In this document: one piece after another, positions 51,088 through 63,103 of the stretch | Layout of the letters: each line of letters starts with the position of its first letter | Numbering within the stretch: the first letter of the stretch is position 1 | Assembly: GCF_030408635.1 (NCBI RefSeq) | Contig: NZ_CP047198.1 | Location: forward strand, 1,364,001-1,428,000 | From: Corynebacterium coyleae | Lineage (GTDB): Bacteria > Actinomycetota > Actinomycetes > Mycobacteriales > Mycobacteriaceae | DNA: 64,000 nt | Reading direction: 5' to 3' | Notes under the pieces: model-generated | Told to the model about the DNA's origin: nothing | Seen by the model: the letters and a program-made list of their open reading frames with translations, nothing else | The model's database searches: none | Position numbers and translations under genes: made by a program

Positions 51088-51906
51088 TTATGGCTGTTTT
51101 ACCAGTTCAGCGACACGTTTCCGCAGTTCAGTAACGTCCGGTCCAGCAGACAAGACGGAACGGGAAACATTCGGGAACACCAGGTGTGCGTTTGCACCTG
51201 CAATCTGCGCCGCGTCTTCCATCGTCGCTCCCTGCGCTCCGACTCCAGGCATAAGCACTGGAGCATTGAGCGCGTCGAGCACCGGCGGCTTCGCCACAGT
51301 TGCACCGACAACGACACCAACGTGGCCTACTGCAGCGCCCTGGTTGTACGTGGCGCATTCATCGACCATCCACTGCGACACCATGCGTCCATCGATTTCA
51401 CTCGTCTGGAACGCTTCAGCTTCAGGGTTGGAGTTCGCAGACATCACGAACACGCCCTTACCGTGCGCTGCAGCAAGTGAGATGGCAGGCTCCAGCGACC
51501 CGACACCCAGATACGGTGTCAGCGTGAGCGCGTCCGCTTCCAACGGTGAGCCTGGTTGCAGCCACGCGGCGGCGTATCCAGCCATCGTGGAGCCGATATC
51601 GCCGCGCTTGGCGTCCGCGACGACGAGCGTCCCGCTCTCACGGAGTGCGGCGAGGGTCTCCTCGAGTACCGCGAAACCCGCAGAGCCGAACCGCTCGTAG
51701 AAGGCAACCTGTGGCTTGACCAACGCAACTGATCCTGCAAAGGCCTCGACACAAGCCGAGGAAAACCGTTGCAGACCATCAATGGTGTCCGGAAGACCCC
51801 ACTTGTCTAGCAGCGCCGCGTGCGGGTCGATGCCTACACACAGTCGGCCATATTCGTTACCAGCGGCAACGAGACGCTCCCCGAAGGAGGCATGGGGCTG
51901 TACCAC
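51088..51906 (-). CDS. pyrF: Orotidine 5'-phosphate decarboxylase, type 2
   Basis: A 272-aa enzyme of the actinobacterial class. GIDPHAALLDKWGLPD near the N-terminus and the catalytic DAKRGDIGSTMAGYAAAW are present. It makes UMP. It overlaps the carB stop by one base and closes the operon. Confidence 0.95.
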   Translation of the reverse strand: MVQPHASFGERLVAAGNEYGRLCVGIDPHAALLDKWGLPDTIDGLQRFSSACVEAFAGSVALVKPQVAFYERFGSAGFAVLEETLAALRESGTLVVADAKRGDIGSTMAGYAAAWLQPGSPLEADALTLTPYLGVGSLEPAISLAAAHGKGVFVMSANSNPEAEAFQTSEIDGRMVSQWMVDECATYNQGAAVGHVGVVVGATVAKPPVLDALNAPVLMPGVGAQGATMEDAAQIAGANAHLVFPNVSRSVLSAGPDVTELRKRVAELVKQP

Positions 51907-54900
51907 TACTGGCCACCCTCTGCGTTCTTGGAGACGCTGTGCTCGAGCTCCTGGAGGCTGGTCACATCAATAGAGTTGCTGCGCACTGCTTCGATGCCTT
52001 GGACTGTGGCGGTAACACCCTGCACATCGGTCATGATCGGTACATCCGCGATCACGGCTGCGGCACGGATGTCGTAGCCATCGTGGCGCGCGGTTGTCGA
52101 GCCCGCCGGAGTGTTCAGGATGAGATCAATCTCGCCGTCCAAGATCCGCTCCACGATGGAACGGCCCTTCGCACCTTCGCGGACCTCGGAGCCCTTGAGT
52201 GCTACTTCGCATTCGATGCCGTTGCGGCGCAGCATTTGCGCTGTACCTGCCGTCGCGATCACCTTGAACCCCATGGTGGACAAACGCTGGATCGGGAAGA
52301 TCAGGGTGCGCTTGTCGTGGTTAGCCAGGGAGACAAAGACCGTGCCCTCCGTTGGCAGTTCGCCGTAAGCAGCGGCCTGGGTCTTAGCAAATGCCACACC
52401 GAACGACGGGGCAAGCCCCATGACCTCACCGGTGGACTTCATTTCCGGGCCGAGGATGGTGTCCAGAATCGACCCGTCTGGGCGGCGGAAGCGGCTAAAC
52501 GGTAGTACCGCTTCCTTCACAGCGATCGGGTGGTTCAGCGGCAAGGATCCGCCATCGTAGTCGGACGGGATGAGGCCCTCGTCGCGAAGTTCAGCGATCG
52601 TCGCGCCGAGCATGACGCGTGCTGCAGCCTTCGCAAGGTGGACGCCGGTCGCCTTGGAGACGAACGGCACCGTACGCGATGCGCGCGGGTTTGCCTCGAT
52701 GACGTAGAGGATGTCGTCCTTCAATGCGAACTGGACGTTCATCAGACCCTTCACCCCGATACCGTGAGCGAGTGCCTCAGCGGAGCGACGGACCTTTTCA
52801 ATGTCGTCGGGGCCGAGCGTCATCGGCGGAAGCGCACAGGCGGAGTCGCCAGAGTGAATGCCGGCTTCCTCGATGTGTTCCATCAGACCACCGAGGTAGA
52901 CCTCGTTGCCGTCAGACAACACATCGACGTCAATTTCGATGGCGTTGTCAAGGAAGCGGTCCACAAGCACTGGGTGGTCCGGGCTGAGCTCGGTTGCGCG
53001 CTCGATGTAGTTGCGCAGGGAGTCTTCGTCATAAACGATCTCCATGCCACGGCCTCCGAGCACGTAAGACGGGCGCACGAGGACGGGGTAACCAACCTTG
53101 TTGGCCACTTCGCGAGCCTCTTCGAAGGAGGTTGCGGTGCCAAATGCGGGAGCTGGAAGCTTGGCTGCTTCGAGCACCTTGCCAAACTCGCCGCGGTCCT
53201 CCGCCAGATCGATTGCCTCGGGGCTCGTACCGACGACTGGCACGCCCGCATCCGCGAGTCGCTGCGCGAGGCCCAGCGGGGTCTGACCGCCGAGCTGCAC
53301 AATAACGCCAGCGACCTCACCGGTAGCGGCTTCCGCACGGTAGATCTCCATCACGTCTTCGAACGTCAACGGTTCGAAGTAGAGACGGTCCGCGGTGTCG
53401 TAGTCGGTAGAAACGGTCTCCGGGTTGCAGTTGACCATCACGGTCTCGTAGCCAACGCGGGACAGTTCCAGGGCGGCGTGGACACAGGAGTAGTCGAACT
53501 CGATGCCCTGACCAATGCGGTTCGGACCAGAGCCCAGGATGATGACCTTGCCCTTGCTGTTTTCCTTTGCACCGGTGAACTGGTCAACCTCAGACTCGGC
53601 AGCCGGGTCGAGTTCGTACGCCGAGTACAAGTACGGAACCTTCGCCTCGTACTGGCCCGAGCAGGTGTCCACGGTCTTGAAGGTCGGGTGGATACCCAGC
53701 GTCCATCGCAGTTGACGCACGCCATCTTCGCCCGCGAGTTCTGGGCGCAGCGTAGCAATCTGGGCGTCGGACAAGCCTTGAGCCTTTGCCTCACGCAGAA
53801 GATCTGCGTCGAGCACAGGGGCGTCGATAAGCACCTGGCGGAATTCGACCAGCCCAGTGACTTCCTCGAGGAACCACGGATCGATGCCGGAGGCTGCGTA
53901 GACCTCATCAACGCTCGCGCCGAGGCGGAGCGCAAGCTCGACATCGTAGAGACGCTTGTCGGTCGGCACCTTAAGGTCTTCGAGCACCGCTGCGACGTCA
54001 TTTGCACGCTCTCCTGCGACGTACTCGTCGGAACGAGTCCAGAAGCCGTTTGGCTTGTCTTCCATCGAGCGCATGACCTTGTTCAGGCCCTGGATGTAGT
54101 TGCGGCCAATCCCCATGGCCTCGCCAACCGCCTTCATGGAGGTGCCCAGAGTCTCGTCCGAGCCCGGGAACTTCTCAAAGGTAAAGCGTGGCATCTTGAC
54201 GATGACGTAGTCGAGGGACGGCTCCTCAAGCGCAGTGGTCGCGCCACCGGTCATGTCGTTGGCAATCTCGTCGAGCGTGTAGCCAATAGCTAGTCGGGTT
54301 GCCACCTTTGCAATCGGGTAGCCGGTCGCCTTCGACGCAAGTGCAGACGAACGCGACACGCGCGGGTTCATCTCGATCGTGATCATGCGGCCGTCTTTGG
54401 GGTTGATGGCGAACTGGATATTGCAGCCACCGGTCCTGACACCGACTTCACGGATGATGGCCTTGCCCTGTTCGATCATCTTGGTGACCTCGGGCTCGGT
54501 CATCGTCAACACCGGCGCCACCGTGACAGAGTCGCCCGTGTGGACACCCATGGCATCCACGTTCTCAATCGTCGCAACCGTAATGCAGTTGTCATCCGAG
54601 TCACGAATGAGCTCGAGCTCGATTTCTTTCCAACCGAGGATGGATTCCTCAATGAGCACGTTCGCTTCTGGCGATGCGGTCAGGCCGTCACCTGCGATGC
54701 GGTGCAAGTCGTCCATGTCGTAGGCAAGGCCGGAACCGAGACCACCCATGGTGAACGACGGGCGCACGACGACTGGGAAGCCGAGCTCCGCGACGGTTTC
54801 TTCCACTTCTTCCATGGTGTAGCAGACACGGGAACGGGCAGACTCGCCGCCGATCTTTTCCACGATGTCCTTGAACTTCTGGCGGTCTTCGCCACGTTCA

Positions 54901-55280
54901 ATCGCGTCGATGTCTGCGCCGATGAGTTCAACGCCGTGCTTTTCCAGAATGCCAAGCCGGTCCAGCTTGATGGCCGTGTTGAGTGCAGTCTGACCACCGA
55001 GCGTCGGCAGAATCGCATCAACCGGGTGGCCTTGCTCTGCCTCGCGGGCGAGGATGCGGTCGATGTACTCCGGCTGGATCGGCTCTACGTACGTGTGGTC
55101 GGCGAACTCAGGGTCGGTCATGATCGTCGCCGGGTTCGAGTTCACCAGGGTGACACGCAGGCCTTCTTCTTTGAGCACGCGGCACGCCTGGGTGCCGGAA
55201 TAGTCAAACTCGCACGCCTGTCCGATGACGATCGGCCCGGAGCCGATGACCAGGACGTGGTTGAGATCTTCTCGCTTCAT
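51906..55280 (-). CDS. carB: Carbamoyl phosphate synthase large subunit
   Basis: A 1124-aa full-length CarB. It holds two homologous halves, each with an ATP-grasp fold (first around residues 130-340, second around 690-880), an oligomerisation segment between them, and a C-terminal regulatory MGS-like domain (from about 960). [18 protein letters not shown] at the N-terminus and [17 protein letters not shown] in the second half are the usual signatures. It forms carbamoyl phosphate from bicarbonate, ATP and ammonia. The partner CarA encoded just upstream lacks the glutaminase domain, so the ammonia source is unclear. Confidence 0.96.
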
Positions 55281-55302
55281 AATGTTTCTCCTGGTCTTTC
55301 TT

Positions 55303-55764
55303 TTAAGCTTCTTGCTTTTCGACGATTACCTGCACGCGCACCGACTTACCCTCGTGCTGCGCTTGTGAGACGTGGCGGACCAGCCTGCGGGTGTCTACAC
55401 CCCAGATGCCGGTAATGCCCTGCGCCTTCATTTCTTCTTCCAGGCTGTGCTTTGCTTCCTGGTTCGATGCGATGCGAGCGAGATCGCGGATCACCACGGC
55501 TTTTGCCGTGATTGCCGTACGTTCCTCCCCTGCTCCTTCACCTGTCCAGCCAACATTGCCGATGTGCGGTGTAGCGAACACCAGGATCTTGCCGTCGTTA
55601 TCGGCAGAGCACATTTCGCGCTCGTAACCGAACATATCGATGATGCTCTTGAGATCGCCTTCAATGTCACCTTCCGGTGCTGCGCCGAAGACGAAGCCGG
55701 TGAATTTCTCGCCTGTGTCGAGGACGAGTTGTGCGCGGGTGCGCTGCTGCTGTGTTTTTGTCAT
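55303..55764 (-). CDS. carA: Truncated CarA: N-terminal domain only, no glutaminase
   Basis: A 153-aa protein starting at ATG 55764, with GAAGG upstream. It matches only the N-terminal domain of carbamoyl phosphate synthase small subunit ([40 protein letters not shown]). Normal CarA is about 390 aa; the C-terminal amidotransferase with its Cys-His-Glu triad is missing. The gene ends where that domain would begin, and carB starts 22 bases later, with no remnant in any frame. The stretch that is usually GEVVFNTGMTGYQE with DPSY is also altered ([19 protein letters not shown]). Position and cotranscription suggest the product still exists and may act as a CarB-binding subunit. Whether a full carA exists elsewhere cannot be seen. 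Confidence 0.8.
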
Positions 55765-55768
55765 GGGT

Positions 55769-57052
55769 TTAGGCCTTCTTTGCAGAGTAGGTTTGGGTGC
55801 CGCGCAGCCAGGTGCCAACTACGCGTGCGTTAAATTCGATGCCTTCGTAGGGAGTGTTCGACGCCTTCGACGCCATATCCTTGCCCTTTGCGGTCCAGGT
55901 GTCCTGTGGATCAATCAAGGTGAGGTTTGCTGGCTCGCCAACCGCGATCGGACGGCCCTGGTCCTCAAGCCGCAGAATTTCGGCAGGGCGCTCGCTCATG
56001 ACCTTGGCCACGAAGCGCCAGTCAGCAAGACCCGATTCGACGAAGACTCGGTGCACGATCGCCATGGACGTTTCTAGGCCGAGCATGCCTGGCTTGGCGT
56101 GCTCGAACTCCACGCACTTGTCTTCAGATCCGTGAGGAGCGTGGTCGGTGGCGATGACGTCCACGGTGCCGTCGAGAAGCGCTTGCTTGAGCGCTTCAGC
56201 GTCGCGCTTTTCGCGCAGTGGAGGGTTGACGCGGAACAGGCCGTCGTAGGTGGACAGCATTTCGTCGGTAAGCAGCAGGTGGTGCGGGGTGACCTCTGCC
56301 GTAACGTTGATGCCCTGTGCTTTGGCGAAGCGAAGCAGCTCGACCGTGCCTTCGGTCGACGCGTGGCAGAGGTGGTAACGACCACCGTAGTCACGAGTCA
56401 TGATGGCGTCGCGTGCGACGATGGATTCCTCCGCGACACGTGGCCAACCGCGAAGCCCCAGGCGCGCTGCCTGCTCGCCTTCGTGGGCGACAGCGCCCTC
56501 GGTCATGCGGTGATCTTCCGCATGCTGGGCGAGAATCACGTCGTGTGCCTTGGCGTATTCGATAGCGCGGCGCATGAGCTGCGGGTCGTTGACGCACTTG
56601 CCATCGTCGGAAAACATGCGCACACCGCTGCGGGCCATCAGACCGATCTCGGTGAGCGTCTTGCCCTCGAGTCCCTTGGTAATCGAGCCCACCGGGTAGA
56701 CATCGCACTTACCGTACGTCTGGCCCTTCTCCCAGACCGCCTCGGCGAGGAACGGCTGGTCGATCACCGGGTTGGTATTCGCCATGGTGAATACAGCGGT
56801 GAAGCCTCCCTTGGCGGCAGCATCCGAGCCGGTAGCGATGGTTTCGGTGTCCTCGCGGCCCGGCTCACGCAGGTGCACGTGCATATCGACGAGACCAGGC
56901 AACAACACGTTGCCACCGCAGTCGATGGTTTCATCAGCATCGTCAAACGGGTTGTCCCCAATGGAGTCGATGACACCGTCTTCCACATCAATGAGAATGC
57001 TGGTCACGTCCTCGCCATATGGACGAACGTTGTTGAGTGCAAGCTTGGTCAC
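55769..57052 (-). CDS. pyrC: Dihydroorotase
   Basis: A 427-aa amidohydrolase of class I. Metal ligands are in [10 protein letters not shown], and further His and Asp in [18 protein letters not shown] and VIATDHAPH. It closes the dihydroorotate ring. The GTG start overlaps the pyrB stop by 4 bases, and carA follows 4 bases after its stop. Confidence 0.96.
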
Positions 57053-57987
57053 TTGATCGCTCCTTCTTCGCCGCCAGTGCCGGCGAGCAGTGTGAACAAC
57101 ACGGCCATGCGGGTGTACACGCCGTTAGAGACCTGGCCGAGAACGACAGCATTGTCGCGATCGGCCACGTCGTAGTTAATTTCCATGCCACGCAGCATCG
57201 GACCCGGGTGCATGATCAACGCCGAATCCTTCATGCGGTCGGCTCGGTCAACGCTCAAGCCGTACAAGGTGGCGTACTCGCGGTGCGACGGGAAGAACCC
57301 GCCGTTCATGCGCTCGGCCTGCACGCGCAGCATCATCACGACATCTGCGTGCTCAATCTCGGCATCGAAGTCATACGAGACACGTGCCGGCCAGAACTCC
57401 ACACCGGTAGGCAGCAGCGTCGGCGGCGCAACCAACACAACCTCTGCGCCCAAGATGTGCAGTAGATCCACGTTGGAGCGAGCAACACGGGAGTGCAAAA
57501 TATCGCCGACGATCAGGACGCGCTTTCCAGCGACATCGCCAATGTGCTGGCGCATGGTCACCGCATCCAGCAAAGCCTGTGTCGGGTGCTGGTGCTGGCC
57601 GTCACCTGCGTTCACGATGCTTGTATTCGGCAACCACTTGGCCAGAAGCTGTGCAGCACCCGAAGCAGGGTGGCGCATGATGATCGCGTCTGCACCGATT
57701 GCCTCCAAAGTTGCAGCGGTGTCTTTGAGCGATTCACCCTTCTTCACCGAAGATGAAGACGCAGACAGATTGATCACATCGGCGCTCATCCACTTGCCCG
57801 CTGTCTCAAACGACGAGCGGGTACGCGTCGAGTTCTCGTAGAACAACGTCATCACAGTGCGGCCGCGCAGGGTCGGAAGCTTCTTGATCTCACGACCATC
57901 CAGAGCTTCCCGGAAGCGGTCCGCTTCATCCATCAGCTCGATGATCTCTTCGCGGCTGAGATCTGCAATATCGATGAGGTGCCTCAT
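57049..57987 (-). CDS. pyrB: Aspartate carbamoyltransferase catalytic chain
   Basis: A 312-aa enzyme. The carbamoyl phosphate loop STRTRSS is at 53-59, [13 protein letters not shown] and [14 protein letters not shown] follow. There is no pyrI gene near, as usual in actinobacteria. It starts directly after pyrR. Confidence 0.96.
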
Positions 57988-58548
57988 TTACGCCTCCCGT
58001 TCCAGGGTCACGCGATCTTCACCGTCGAGCTGGGCGATCGCGACAGTGACATCTTCGTCCTTAGATGTGGGGATGTTCTTGCCTACGTAATCCGCGCGGA
58101 TTGGCAGCTCCCGGTGGCCACGATCGACCAGCACTGCGAGCTGGATCGCGGCTGGCCTACCGATGTCGCGCAGCGAATCAAGGGCGGCGCGAATGGTTCG
58201 GCCGGAGTACAAGACATCGTCGACAAGCACGACAATTGCCCCGTCGATGTCGACCGGAATGTGGGTTGGGCGCAGTGCCCGATGTGGCTTGTCGCGGAGA
58301 TCGTCGCGGTACAAAGTGACGTCGAGACTGCCTACTGGCACGCTCACGCCTGAAAATTCTTCAACCGCTTCCGCAATACGCTGCGCTAACGGAACACCAC
58401 CGGACGGGATCCCCAGCAGAATGACCTGCGGTCCGTCGCTGTCGTCCAGCGTTGTCTTCTCGATGATCTGGTGCGCGATGCGTGCAACAGTGCGACCGAC
58501 GTCCTGAGCGTTCAGCAGCTCAACCGTCGACCGTTCGTTTCCACTCAT
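57988..58548 (-). CDS. pyrR: PyrR, uracil-sensing RNA-binding regulator
   Basis: A 186-aa protein of the phosphoribosyltransferase fold. The PRPP motif [15 protein letters not shown] is at 106-120, and the dimer-surface residues [12 protein letters not shown] are conserved. PyrR binds pyr mRNA when UMP is high. It leads the operon, and its own leader carries a hairpin of the PyrR-binding type overlapping the region before AGGAGG (58553-58558). Confidence 0.95.
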
Positions 58549-58687: not shown

Positions 58688-59188
58688 ATGGGTATTCTCG
58701 CAAGTGTGACTACAGAAGAGACTGAAGCCATCCAGCCCAACGAGCACCCAGAACGCAACGTTCCGGAACCGGTGACTACCGAAGCAATCGCCGCGATTTT
58801 TGAGGAAGAAAATCTTGAATACCGCGTCGAAGATCAAGCCGTGCGCTCTGGTTTTATCAACGCAGCAATCGTCATTGCCCTCGACGGCGATCACCTCATC
58901 TTCGAGGCCCTGTGGCGTGGCGAGTTTCCCCGCGATAGCGCATCGCAGGTGCTGTTTGCCTGCAACGAGCACAACCAGACGCATTTTGCACCGACCCTGC
59001 GTTTCTTCGAACGCGGTGAGGACAACCTGGCTGTGAGCGCCATTCGCTCGATGAACATCGCCGATGGAGCCTCATTCAACCAGCTCGGCTCTTTCATTGT
59101 GACGTCTATCGACGCCACGCTTCAGGCATTCGACTACCTCAAAACCACTTTCCCGACCGTCGTGAACTGGGAGGAACCGCAGCAGTGA
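58688..59188 (+). CDS. YbjN-domain protein, first of a pair
   Basis: A 166-aa protein. Residues 30-160 form a YbjN-like domain (EAIAAIFEEENLEYRVED, VLFACNEHNQTHFAPTLRFFE, FNQLGSFIVTSIDATLQAFDYL), similar in fold to secretion chaperones. The function is unknown. The ATG has GAGGAG about 11 bases upstream; a GTG six codons later is possible. It overlaps the second copy by 4 bases. Confidence 0.78.
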   Translation: MGILASVTTEETEAIQPNEHPERNVPEPVTTEAIAAIFEEENLEYRVEDQAVRSGFINAAIVIALDGDHLIFEALWRGEFPRDSASQVLFACNEHNQTHFAPTLRFFERGEDNLAVSAIRSMNIADGASFNQLGSFIVTSIDATLQAFDYLKTTFPTVVNWEEPQQ

Positions 59189-59652
59189 GCACCGCAACTC
59201 AAGTAACCATCGACCGCGTCATCGAAACGATGGCGAAGCAGGGCATCGAAGTTTCCGACGACCCGTCTGGCCGCGCAGGCCACGCCCATTACAAGGGATT
59301 CAACCTGCTGTTTGTCCTGTTGGACTCAGTGTTGATCCTGCGTGCGGACTCGGTTACCGACACCCCGTCCGACACGCCCGATGCCACCTTGTACCTGGCC
59401 GCAAACCAGGTCAACAGCTCGTACCTCGACGCGCGTGCGCTCGTGGTCAACCGCACCGAGACGATCGTTGTGCGCACCGAATCGGAAATCGCGATCGGCG
59501 CAGGGCTAAGCGACGAGCAACTCGCGTCCTCGCTCAAGGCCGCTGTTGCTGGTGTGTTGGAAACCCAAGATGCCATGCAGGTGCTGGTGGGCGAGATCAA
59601 GCGCACCGCTGAGGAAGCAAGCGCAGCGCAGAACGATACCGAGGAGAGCTAA
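59185..59652 (+). CDS. YbjN-domain protein, second of a pair
   Basis: A 155-aa protein starting at a GTG that overlaps the upstream stop (GTGA). It shares the YbjN layout with the first but is clearly diverged (IETMAKQGIEVSDDPSG, LYLAANQVNSSYLDARAL, ASSLKAAVAGVLETQ). The two may form a heterodimer. A small hairpin (59650-59671) follows the stop and may act as a weak terminator. Confidence 0.75.
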   Translation: MSTATQVTIDRVIETMAKQGIEVSDDPSGRAGHAHYKGFNLLFVLLDSVLILRADSVTDTPSDTPDATLYLAANQVNSSYLDARALVVNRTETIVVRTESEIAIGAGLSDEQLASSLKAAVAGVLETQDAMQVLVGEIKRTAEEASAAQNDTEES

Positions 59653-59686: not shown

Positions 59687-62600
59687 CTATTTACGCCTGC
59701 TCATCAAAACGCCTCCAACGATGAGGCACGCGATTGCCAAGCCGAGAGCATTGCGGACTTCAGCTCCCGTCGAGGCCAGCGAACCTCCTCGTTGTTCATC
59801 AGAGACACGAGGGCTTTGCGCGGTACCTTCTCCGGTCCCCCGCGCCACCTTCTGTGTGCTGCCGACGGCTGCGCCTTGCGCAACCACCGAGTTTGCACGC
59901 GACCGCTGCGTCGTGGGGGTCGTGAGGCTCGTAGGGGTTTTCTGTTTCGAGCCCGTTGATGATGCCGAAGTCCGTGACGCGGACGCAGTCACCGTCGCAG
60001 ACACAGTTGGCCGAGCGGTTGCCTGTTGACTCTCTCGCACAGTGCTCGTTGGGCTGGTAGGCGTTGGCAAGCCACTGGCCGATGTCGAGCCGCTGGCCGA
60101 TGTCGAGCCGCTGGCCGATGGCGACGCCTGAGGCACGTCGTTCCTGCTGGAAATCTGCGTGTCATCGCCAACGAGATACGTCACCGTTGACCATTCCGTC
60201 ACAGGTTCGCCGCTAAGCGAAACGGTACGCATCTCAATGTCATAGACGCCGGGCTGCGTAAAGATCCAGTCTGCGTGCACGTGGAAATTGCCCGGTGTGA
60301 CTCCCGTGATGGTGTGCGTTTGGGAATCATCGGCCAACGTCGCAGGCGGCACGCCGATAGTTGGCAGGTGCCCCGCCCACCAACGTCCACCTGTTGGCGC
60401 AGTTTTCGGGCGCACTTCAATGTTGACACCATCTGGGTAAGTCTCCGCTACTTTCATCGTGTCCCACCCGGGCCAGACGGCGTCGTGAAGCTGCCCGAGC
60501 GGAAGGTGATACACCGTGTCACCTTCCTGGAGGAATCCGACATTCGTTGCAACCTGTGCAGTGCGTTGATCGACTGTGATCTTTCGAGCATCGAACACAC
60601 GCAGTGCAACCGATTCGGGAATGTGATGGGTACTTCCTTCGTGGACGAAGAAGCCAGTCTTGCCGTCGATAACCTTTGGGCCAAAATCAACATGGCCTGT
60701 GGTGATCTCGACCGGCGTAGTCTCAGCTGGAGGTTCTGAGGACGGCAGGGTCGTCGCCTGGGCAGACGTAGTCGGTGCTGCCGTTGGTGCCGTTGTCTGT
60801 GCCGGCGTTGGTGCCGGTGCCGTTGTCGCGACCGTCGTGTCGGGCCCGGTCGTGTCGGGCACCGTCGGCGGAACGAACTCCCCGTCGGCTGCTACCTCGA
60901 ACCGCAGAATTTCCTGCTTTGATGTGGATCCTCCTACCTCGGCGACGGACACTCCGATTTCATAGCTGCCTGGCTTATTAAAGGCCCAGGAAACATGCAT
61001 GTGTTCTGGACCGTCGGTGGTGTACGCACGGGTTGCGTCGTTGCCTGCAAGACGCATGCTCGGATCTGTCTGATCACCGCGAAACGCGATCCAGTTACCG
61101 CCCCGTGGTGCAGATACAGGTGTCAGCGTGAAGGTGTAGTTCTTCCCTGTCTCACCGAAAGCATGTTCTGTGCTTAAGCCAGGCCAGACAACTCCACGGC
61201 GCTGTGTTTCTGGGAGAATATATGCGACCTCCCCTGCTTTTGCGAAGCCTTCGATATCGTCATCCAGCACTGTCCCGACCTGTTTCGGCACGGTGAAAGC
61301 AACGCTGGATGGCGAGCGCCACACCGCACCCTTGTCGTAAAGATTCGTCTCGTCTTTCACGCGCAGGTGAAGTGTGCCTGATTCGTAGAGCGGTGCAATA
61401 TCGACGTGCCCGGAGTGCAGGTTGAGCACTTTCTCCTGCGCTGGAGTGGGCGTCGACGATGGTGAGGGTTCCGCCGAAGGCGCCGGTGAAGGCGCCGGTG
61501 AAGACGGCTGCGGCGACGGCGCTTCAGAGGTTGCAGTCGGCGCTGCAGGTGGCGTTGCAGGTGCTTCACCCAACGTCACTGTGGTCTCGGGAATCGGCGA
61601 GTAATCAGCCTCCTGCAGGTGGTTAAACAAAGCTGCGTCAGTGGCGTTCGATCGCGCTTCGGGCACAATCTTGAAGATCAATTGATGCCCAGGACGGCGG
61701 CAACCGTCAACGAGTTGTTTGCTGGTTCGGGTGCCAGGTGCTGAGGTGAATTCAATTTCGCAATCGGCGATAGCGTGTTCTGGCAATTCAGTCAACGGGT
61801 CACCGTCGATGCGGTAGAAACCACCGGAGACACGAAGCGTGGTGCGATCATCAGCTGGGCGCACCGTGATGTCGATGTTGCGGTCGTCCTCGCCGTAGAC
61901 CTCTCCCGTAGACACCACGACATCTGGACTGGTGATGTTGAACGGCTCGGTTTCAAAAGGCGCGATGTCATCCATCTGCGGGGTTGGAAGCTCCTCAGCG
62001 CGCTCGCTTGTCGACGACGCCACCGCCCCAGTCCTAAACGTCAACGGCGCAGAAATCCAACGTGGCGACGGCGATCCAGATACAGGAATGTAGACCGCCT
62101 GGAAGTCGGAAAACTCTTCGCCGATCATCTCATCCCACGAGGCCTTGCCGTCGACTACTTCCCGTTCCGCAAGGTAGAAGCCGTTGATAAGGAACACGAC
62201 ATGCCCAGCATCTTTCGGGTTACCGGTATCAAACGCCAAATTGGTCAGGATCCCCTCCTGTGCGCCCTTGGTCTCTCCTTGTGCAGGGCGCATCTGGAAC
62301 GTTGGGGAACCTGTCCCCGACGTGTTTGCCTGACTATAGGCTCGGGGCAAATCGTTGATTGTGCGGTCAGCCGGGTTCGTACCGCCGACCTGCCACACGA
62401 GTGTCTGGGGTTCCGAATGGATAAAGGAACCGTCTTTGAGACGGGCTGTCGCCCGATACGTCACCTCATAGCGCCCCGGTCGAGTGAAGGTCGTCGAGTT
62501 GTGAGTGTGGGTACCGGCGTTGACCCACGTTGCACGGAAACCTGGATCGTGGGACGACCAGAGCCGGTTAAGCGGATAGACCTCGTCGCTGTAGTTAAAC

Positions 62601-63103
62601 AACTCCATCTTTCCGGGACCGTGGAAATCGACGATCTCCATATTGAAGGAAGCCGCACGGAAATCCTCTGTCGGCAAGTCAGCGGCCGCTCCGAAACCTG
62701 CCCAAATCGGCATGGTGTTCTTAGGGAAACCGTGCGCGGGCCCACCGAAGTACATCAGTTGCTCGTCGTACGGGTCGAGGAAATCGAATCGGGGATCGTC
62801 GGGAACACGCCAGGCGTAGGCGCCTAGGCCGCCGTCCACGCGTCCCCTACTCACCCAGTTCACGGTGTCCTCAATGGGCAGGTAGCCCGCACTATTGGAC
62901 ATGAGGCGAAACGTTCCATCCTCCCACACAGCGTGGGGTGAGTCGACGTGTGTTTGGGTTCGCACAACCGGCTGTGAGGCTTCACTCCACGACAACGGTG
63001 CACACAGCACCGTGAGCGCTACCGCGGATAACAGCGCCACAAAGCTCTTCCGAGGATGCACGTCTTTTAGATCGCCCATAGCGGAAGTAGTACGGCGGGG
63101 CAT
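59687..63103 (-). CDS. Sortase-anchored surface protein with repeated anchor-M type domains
   Basis: A 1138-aa protein with AAGGAG five bases before the ATG. A signal peptide covers about residues 1-43. Three related domains follow: one near 45-245, one near 560-745 (HSGHVDIAPLYESG), one near 810-1000 (TTGHVDFGPKVIDG). They match the actinobacterial choice-of-anchor M / wall-associated repeat domain that accompanies metal-linked ABC transporters. Linkers are rich in Pro, Ser and Thr. The C-terminus has LASTG, a hydrophobic helix and RRK, a sorting signal for a class E-type sortase. A Zur-like site precedes the gene, so it is probably induced when zinc is low. The ligand is unknown. Confidence 0.85.
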   Translation of the reverse strand: MPRRTTSAMGDLKDVHPRKSFVALLSAVALTVLCAPLSWSEASQPVVRTQTHVDSPHAVWEDGTFRLMSNSAGYLPIEDTVNWVSRGRVDGGLGAYAWRVPDDPRFDFLDPYDEQLMYFGGPAHGFPKNTMPIWAGFGAAADLPTEDFRAASFNMEIVDFHGPGKMELFNYSDEVYPLNRLWSSHDPGFRATWVNAGTHTHNSTTFTRPGRYEVTYRATARLKDGSFIHSEPQTLVWQVGGTNPADRTINDLPRAYSQANTSGTGSPTFQMRPAQGETKGAQEGILTNLAFDTGNPKDAGHVVFLINGFYLAEREVVDGKASWDEMIGEEFSDFQAVYIPVSGSPSPRWISAPLTFRTGAVASSTSERAEELPTPQMDDIAPFETEPFNITSPDVVVSTGEVYGEDDRNIDITVRPADDRTTLRVSGGFYRIDGDPLTELPEHAIADCEIEFTSAPGTRTSKQLVDGCRRPGHQLIFKIVPEARSNATDAALFNHLQEADYSPIPETTVTLGEAPATPPAAPTATSEAPSPQPSSPAPSPAPSAEPSPSSTPTPAQEKVLNLHSGHVDIAPLYESGTLHLRVKDETNLYDKGAVWRSPSSVAFTVPKQVGTVLDDDIEGFAKAGEVAYILPETQRRGVVWPGLSTEHAFGETGKNYTFTLTPVSAPRGGNWIAFRGDQTDPSMRLAGNDATRAYTTDGPEHMHVSWAFNKPGSYEIGVSVAEVGGSTSKQEILRFEVAADGEFVPPTVPDTTGPDTTVATTAPAPTPAQTTAPTAAPTTSAQATTLPSSEPPAETTPVEITTGHVDFGPKVIDGKTGFFVHEGSTHHIPESVALRVFDARKITVDQRTAQVATNVGFLQEGDTVYHLPLGQLHDAVWPGWDTMKVAETYPDGVNIEVRPKTAPTGGRWWAGHLPTIGVPPATLADDSQTHTITGVTPGNFHVHADWIFTQPGVYDIEMRTVSLSGEPVTEWSTVTYLVGDDTQISSRNDVPQASPSASGSTSASGSTSASGLPTPTSPTSTVRESQQATARPTVSATVTASASRTSASSTGSKQKTPTSLTTPTTQRSRANSVVAQGAAVGSTQKVARGTGEGTAQSPRVSDEQRGGSLASTGAEVRNALGLAIACLIVGGVLMSRRK
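60071..60124. repeat. 18-base tandem repeat in the surface protein gene
   Basis: Three copies of an 18-base unit based on GCCGCTGGCCGATGTCGA encode SASGST repeated. Copy number could vary by six residues per unit without changing the frame. Confidence 0.85.

Follow-up and report, generated by a model that had tools for sequence, protein, structure and literature searches.

How carbamoyl phosphate is made when the small subunit of carbamoyl phosphate synthetase (CPS) has lost its glutaminase domain is the question raised by a pyr operon of Corynebacterium coyleae. The operon lies in the window, the whole stretch of 64,000 nucleotides that was analyzed. The initial annotation described a CarA-like protein of 153 residues, reduced to its N-terminal domain, and offered three explanations: that carbamoyl phosphate is made directly from ammonia, that a second full carA or a free glutaminase is encoded elsewhere, or that the short protein is a structural partner of CarB.

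The short carA gene and its neighbors

The pyr group begins with pyrR (57988..58548), followed by pyrB for aspartate carbamoyltransferase, which uses carbamoyl phosphate (57049..57987), pyrC for dihydroorotase, immediately upstream of short carA (55769..57052), short carA itself (55303..55764), carB for the large subunit (51906..55280), and pyrF downstream (51088..51906). All six are on the minus strand, and the names pyrR, pyrB, pyrC, and pyrF come from translations read by eye rather than from a model. The short carA frame runs from an ATG start to a TAA stop. Its ATG is 4 bases from the end of pyrC at 55769, and a gap of 22 bases without any coding remnant of a glutaminase (55281..55302, minus strand) separates its stop from the carB ATG at 55280, so that a glutaminase domain has no room. 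The carB product, described as full length and intact in the initial annotation, has 1124 residues and passes TIGR01369 as a full-length chain with 1333 bits (cutoff of 1027).

The only Pfam match of short CarA is to the N-terminal domain of the CPS small subunit (PF00988, CPSase_sm_chain) at residues 13–135, with 84 bits against a cutoff of 27. The protein falls under both NCBIfam cutoffs for CarA, scoring 78.3 against 307.35 bits with TIGR01368 and 85.4 against 221 bits with NF009475. Together with the frame, these matches confirm a CarA-like protein consisting of the N-terminal domain only. The class I glutaminase domain of CarA is absent, and the Cys elbow and His-x-Glu motifs of that domain, present in 24 of 24 full CarA proteins, were found in none of the 15 short CarA proteins collected from the genus. 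The description of carB as following after 22 bases, with no glutaminase motif, was thus correct.

An altered DPSY region had also been proposed and was borne out by the wider comparison. In the window, the residues DMFGYE (55621..55638, minus strand) replace the A/S-M-T-G-Y-Q motif of full CarA, and the subsequent DPSY is gone. The pattern T-A/S-M-T-G-Y-Q-E occurs in 23 of 24 full and 0 of 15 short proteins and D-P-S-Y/F in 24 of 24 and 0 of 15, respectively; conversely, M-F-G/A-Y-E/Q is present in all 15 short proteins and in none of the 24 full ones. Ser47 of the E. coli DPSY contacts bound glutamine, and drift at this site would consequently be expected after glutamine handling has ceased.

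Several other frames were seen close to the operon. A YbjN-family gene (59185..59652, plus strand; PF10722, 29.3 bits against a cutoff of 22) has a neighbor of 166 residues (58688..59188) with no Pfam match at 1e-5. A protein of 1138 residues (59687..63103, minus strand) likewise has no Pfam match at 1e-5. On reading, it appears to start like a leader and to contain repeats and stretches rich in Pro, Ser, and Thr, with a LASTGA-like stretch ahead of a hydrophobic end.

Distribution of short carA in Corynebacterium

A search of 242 Corynebacterium genomes with PF00988 and the short protein revealed short CarA in 15, at 146–167 residues and with carB 0–23 bases behind. Members include C. haemomassiliense, C. 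glaucum, C. riegelii, and C. stercoris, as well as strains MSK041, MSK008, HMSC05H05, HMSC29G08, and Marseille-P4321; the loss is therefore shared by related species. Full CarA was assigned to 225 genomes. For 185 of these the assignment followed from open frames of at least 383 residues among the matches listed, 24 of which were read and contained the glutaminase motifs, and for the remaining 40 it followed from nearly end-to-end matches with a full-length CarA query. Genomes G020 and G106 gave no carA match and only distant CarB matches, so that CarB without CarA was not seen in the genus; these two organisms may depend on an external supply of arginine and pyrimidines.

Beyond the genus, a class-wide search of 394 genomes revealed no short CarA among the matches listed, except in G337, where CarA is short and cut by a contig edge. 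Weak out-of-genus matches proved to be full CarA in G370 and G463 and to be cut at contig edges in G280.

Three peculiarities of carA were observed within the genus. The full-length CarA of G226 (C1:945681-946757) is divergent, with 45% identity to the CarA of G052, as compared with 65–76% for the other 39 full-CarA genomes in the same comparison. Genome G128 has two PF00988 matches of equal score ∼7 kb apart on one contig (C2:1062488-1062865 and 1069454-1069831), possibly a duplication. In G055, G069, G070, G167, G168, G206, and G237, carA lies inside an open frame of ∼800–880 residues, which is possibly a fusion with the upstream gene or a chance open frame.

Nitrogen donor of the short CarA-CarB pair

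CarB was compared between the 15 short-CarA genomes and 24 of the 225 full-CarA genomes, for the most part the ones closest to the short protein. At 27 positions the two groups share no residue. All of these fixed differences, one of which is an inserted residue (345), fall within residues 46–352, most of them at 220–237, 262–282, and 321–352, and none falls within 353–1124; the segment encoding residues 1–352 (54225..55280, minus strand) thus holds the entire set. A looser count gave 26 positions, all within 6–351. In the stretches 212–284, 300–324, and 340–355, positions shared with E. coli CarB and human CPS1 are identical in all 39 genomes, among them the catalytic residues Glu219, Asn240, His247, Glu303, Asn305, Arg307, and Arg310. 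The ammonia-gate positions Ala255 and Ala318 are also identical in 39 of 39. At the third gate position all 15 short-CarA genomes have Ala, and the others have Ala (17) or Cys (7). The gate residues were taken from PMC4655335 and mapped onto CarB by alignment. The active-site and gate positions named here for the first synthetase domain are therefore kept within these stretches. Two positions in this region carry the residue of human CPS1: position 220 is Ile in 11 of 15 short-CarA genomes (Phe or Tyr with full CarA, Tyr in E. coli), and position 321 is Tyr in 15 of 15 (Phe with full CarA and in E. coli). The positions are few, and this likeness may be due to chance.

Judging from these sequences, the short CarA-CarB pair is probably a working carbamoyl phosphate synthetase that gave up glutamine. 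Using ATP, CarB would make carbamoyl phosphate out of bicarbonate and free ammonia, and the 153-residue CarA remnant would remain attached to the first domain of CarB, the carboxyphosphate domain, in the manner of ordinary CarA. There it would support the domain and contribute to a route for external ammonia into the site. On the most economical reading, the part of CarA that contacts CarB would have been kept and the glutamine-cleaving part dropped. That ammonia is the nitrogen donor seems very probable, and the short protein very likely binds CarB; its contribution to the ammonia path, suggested by analogy with CPS1, has about an even chance of being correct. A joint predicted fold of short CarA with CarB residues 1–560 was of low confidence (mean pLDDT 49.0).

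Human CPS1, according to PMC4655335, cannot use glutamine and takes external ammonia, and the path proposed for that ammonia starts at the surface, between Glu82 and His142, and follows the interface of the N- and C-terminal moieties. Both residues, as numbered there, lie inside CPS1 43–188, the stretch matched by the short CarA model upon structural alignment (VIA-align).

A glutaminase encoded elsewhere might instead dock in trans on short CarA-CarB and supply ammonia from glutamine. The genome that contains the window (2.51 Mb, single contig) has one PF00988 gene at E values up to 1. Queried with a full CarA, it yielded only short carA and two further GATase genes, the latter with E values of ∼1e-9. 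These searches of the whole contig found no second carA, which was rejected as an explanation. Six GATase matches are present in the same genome. Two are GuaA-like and PyrG-like by reading and frame length, and two, TrpG-like and PurQ, each exceed their NCBIfam cutoff. The remaining two are generic, below every NCBIfam cutoff and without a known partner, and every short-CarA genome contains class I GATases (5–8 PF00117 matches each), so that candidates for a trans-acting partner exist.

Nevertheless, we consider a trans-acting glutaminase unlikely. All 6 full-CarA genomes examined have a CarA-type GATase match in the position of carA, as compared with 0 of the 15. Across these 21 genomes no GATase type peculiar to the short-CarA group was detected by length and score, with the model scan covering the window genome, and by that comparison a glutaminase special to the 15 was rejected. 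No more than 5 matches each were found in genomes G099, G095, and G153, and full-CarA genomes contain the same types. The loss of DPSY from all 15 proteins, including the serine that contacts glutamine in E. coli, also argues against glutamine-dependent supply. No functional glutaminase is attached to short CarA-CarB, and neither a second carA nor a free CarA-type glutaminase was found by the searches above, which leaves, from the three options of the initial annotation, direct use of ammonia joined with a structural role for the short protein.

Short carA could also be a decaying relic without a role, with CarB working alone. Its protein changes faster than full CarA, and branches among the short CarAs are long in the CarA N-domain tree, as might be seen in a relic. 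The dN/dS values of short carA are 0.115–0.306 (Nei-Gojobori; 10 pairs, an eleventh pair being identical), as against 0.015–0.256 (8 pairs) for residues 1–132 of full CarA, which indicates that short carA is constrained but more weakly than the N-domain of full CarA. Being well under 1, the values reveal purifying selection, and the short frame is kept in 15 of 15 genomes. There are 33 invariant columns in an alignment of 13 of the 15 rows (G061 and G095 left out), and the predicted structure has the whole N-domain fold (mean pLDDT 82.4). Furthermore, short carA and the N-terminal half of CarB are present together in the mosaic of strain MSK041 described below, and the two genomes without CarA are also without CarB. 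A relic is accordingly very improbable.

There is even less to commend the proposal that CarB is no longer the source of carbamoyl phosphate and that another route or import has taken over, although G020 and G106 suggest that doing without CarB is possible in the genus. In the same 10 short-CarA pairs the dN/dS of CarB 1–400 is 0.016–0.072 (Nei-Gojobori), and the conserved CarB positions are invariant in the three stretches examined. Carbamate kinase was rejected as a source: none of 21 genomes has a match over the cutoff, the matches obtained (30.8–42.1 bits, one of them in a gene reading as ArgB) being far below the required 358.25 bits. Open frames are present in the window genome both for the pyr operon and for a cluster reading as argC-J-B-D-F-R-G-H at ∼1.238–1.247 Mb (assigned by reading, not by model). 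Genes reading as PyrB and ArgF, both users of carbamoyl phosphate, are present, so that this compound would be needed for arginine as well as pyrimidines. An assembly or annotation artifact has a negligible probability, and nothing was found in its favor; the layout recurs in 14 other genomes, and nine of the 15 are separately named records, which makes chance or assembly error unlikely.

Urease was found in 2 of 15 short-CarA genomes as compared with 90 of 242 overall, which gives no ecological link from the side of ammonia supply, and an association of urease with short CarA was rejected.

CarAB, CPS1, and the small CPS of Methanobrevibacter are already known, and the ammonia-using enzyme proposed here would differ from each. 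Unlike glutamine-dependent CarAB of the E. coli type, it lacks the glutaminase domain and DPSY and carries the 27 fixed CarB differences from its full-CarA kin. It resembles human CPS1 in having no working glutaminase and in keeping the N-domain (S1); CPS1, as presented in PMC4655335, also takes outside ammonia but is one chain, retains an inactive glutaminase-like domain, and needs N-acetylglutamate. Short CarA and CarB, by contrast, are encoded by separate genes, and the glutaminase-like domain is deleted. The small CPS of Methanobrevibacter smithii is a dimer of 41 kDa, and a passage of PMC6022934 describes it, similarly, without mention of a glutaminase part; it is a half-size enzyme for which that passage mentions no CarA remnant, whereas the present pair is a full CarAB minus one domain. 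Searches of the open-licence PMC literature turned up no description of a bacterial CPS that retains the N-domain but has its glutaminase domain deleted.

According to PMC6245113, ammonia serves the E. coli enzyme only when its concentration is very high and probably unphysiological, which weighs against the ammonia reading. If the proposed working is true, short CarA-CarB would be a natural exception to what that source says of the E. coli enzyme and extends to all bacterial CPSs. It would also parallel, in bacteria, the transition from a glutamine-using CPS to the ammonia-using CPS1, taken further by deletion of a whole domain. The role of CarA in cleaving glutamine would thereby be set apart from its role in supporting CarB, and the 15 natural variants offer material for finding CarB changes that let the synthetase run on free ammonia.

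Ancestry of short carA and the N-terminal part of CarB

Trees of the CarA N-domain and of CarB 1–400 both unite the 15 short-CarA genomes, which in the latter form one clade (100/100) inside Corynebacterium. The stem of this clade has 0.33 changes per site, and the next longest inner branch has 0.18; the long stem is a sign of fast change that is separate from the count of fixed positions. Some residues of the CarB N-terminal half agree with E. coli, but a tree with nine outside rows places this half inside Corynebacterium, and a foreign origin was rejected.

A different grouping was obtained beyond this part of CarB. In the tree of CarB 480–1110, G186 (strain MSK041) groups with G223 and G111, and a single clade of the 15 is rejected (AU p 0.0006). 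The PyrR, PyrB, PyrC, and PyrF proteins of G186 are nearest to G111 or G223, and in the rpoB tree G186 is sister to G223 (100/98), one clade of the 15 being rejected there as well (p 2e-7). The CarB of G186 contains 53 columns that tell the two types apart. Of the 41 up to residue 459, 39 match the short-CarA type and the remaining 2 match neither type; position 500 is of the full type, 534, 547, and 551 are of the short type, and from 557 on 8 of 8 are of the full type. This mosaic suggests that short carA and approximately the first 460–550 residues of CarB entered jointly and replaced a full carA; on these sequence patterns, short carA and the CarB N-terminal part appear to have moved as a unit into MSK041. 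The case thereby indicates which piece of the enzyme travelled. Because the 15 share no ancestry beyond CarB 480, the confinement of the fixed differences to the N-terminal half is partly a footprint of recombination.

The other 14 genomes give a less clear picture: they group together in a tree of PyrR, PyrB, PyrC, whole CarB (N-terminal half included), and PyrF, but they do not form one clade in the tree of CarB 480–1110. In the rpoB tree they are intermixed with four full-CarA species (G116, G236, G052, and G079), and one clade is rejected (p 0.018). This mixing could reflect further transfers or a regain of full carA. On balance, we lean toward a single loss of the glutaminase domain having founded an ammonia-only bacterial CPS whose first catalytic domain was rebuilt around the CarA N-domain; short carA and the N-terminal half of CarB would since have been exchanged between species as a module able to replace the glutamine-dependent enzyme.

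The rpoB tree also groups G000 with G145 and G153 (100/100), whereas the pyr genes place G000 with G099. This contradiction indicates that rpoB does not provide a clean species tree, and the rpoB genes of G000, G145, and G153 (L150, L159, and L160) may have recombined too.
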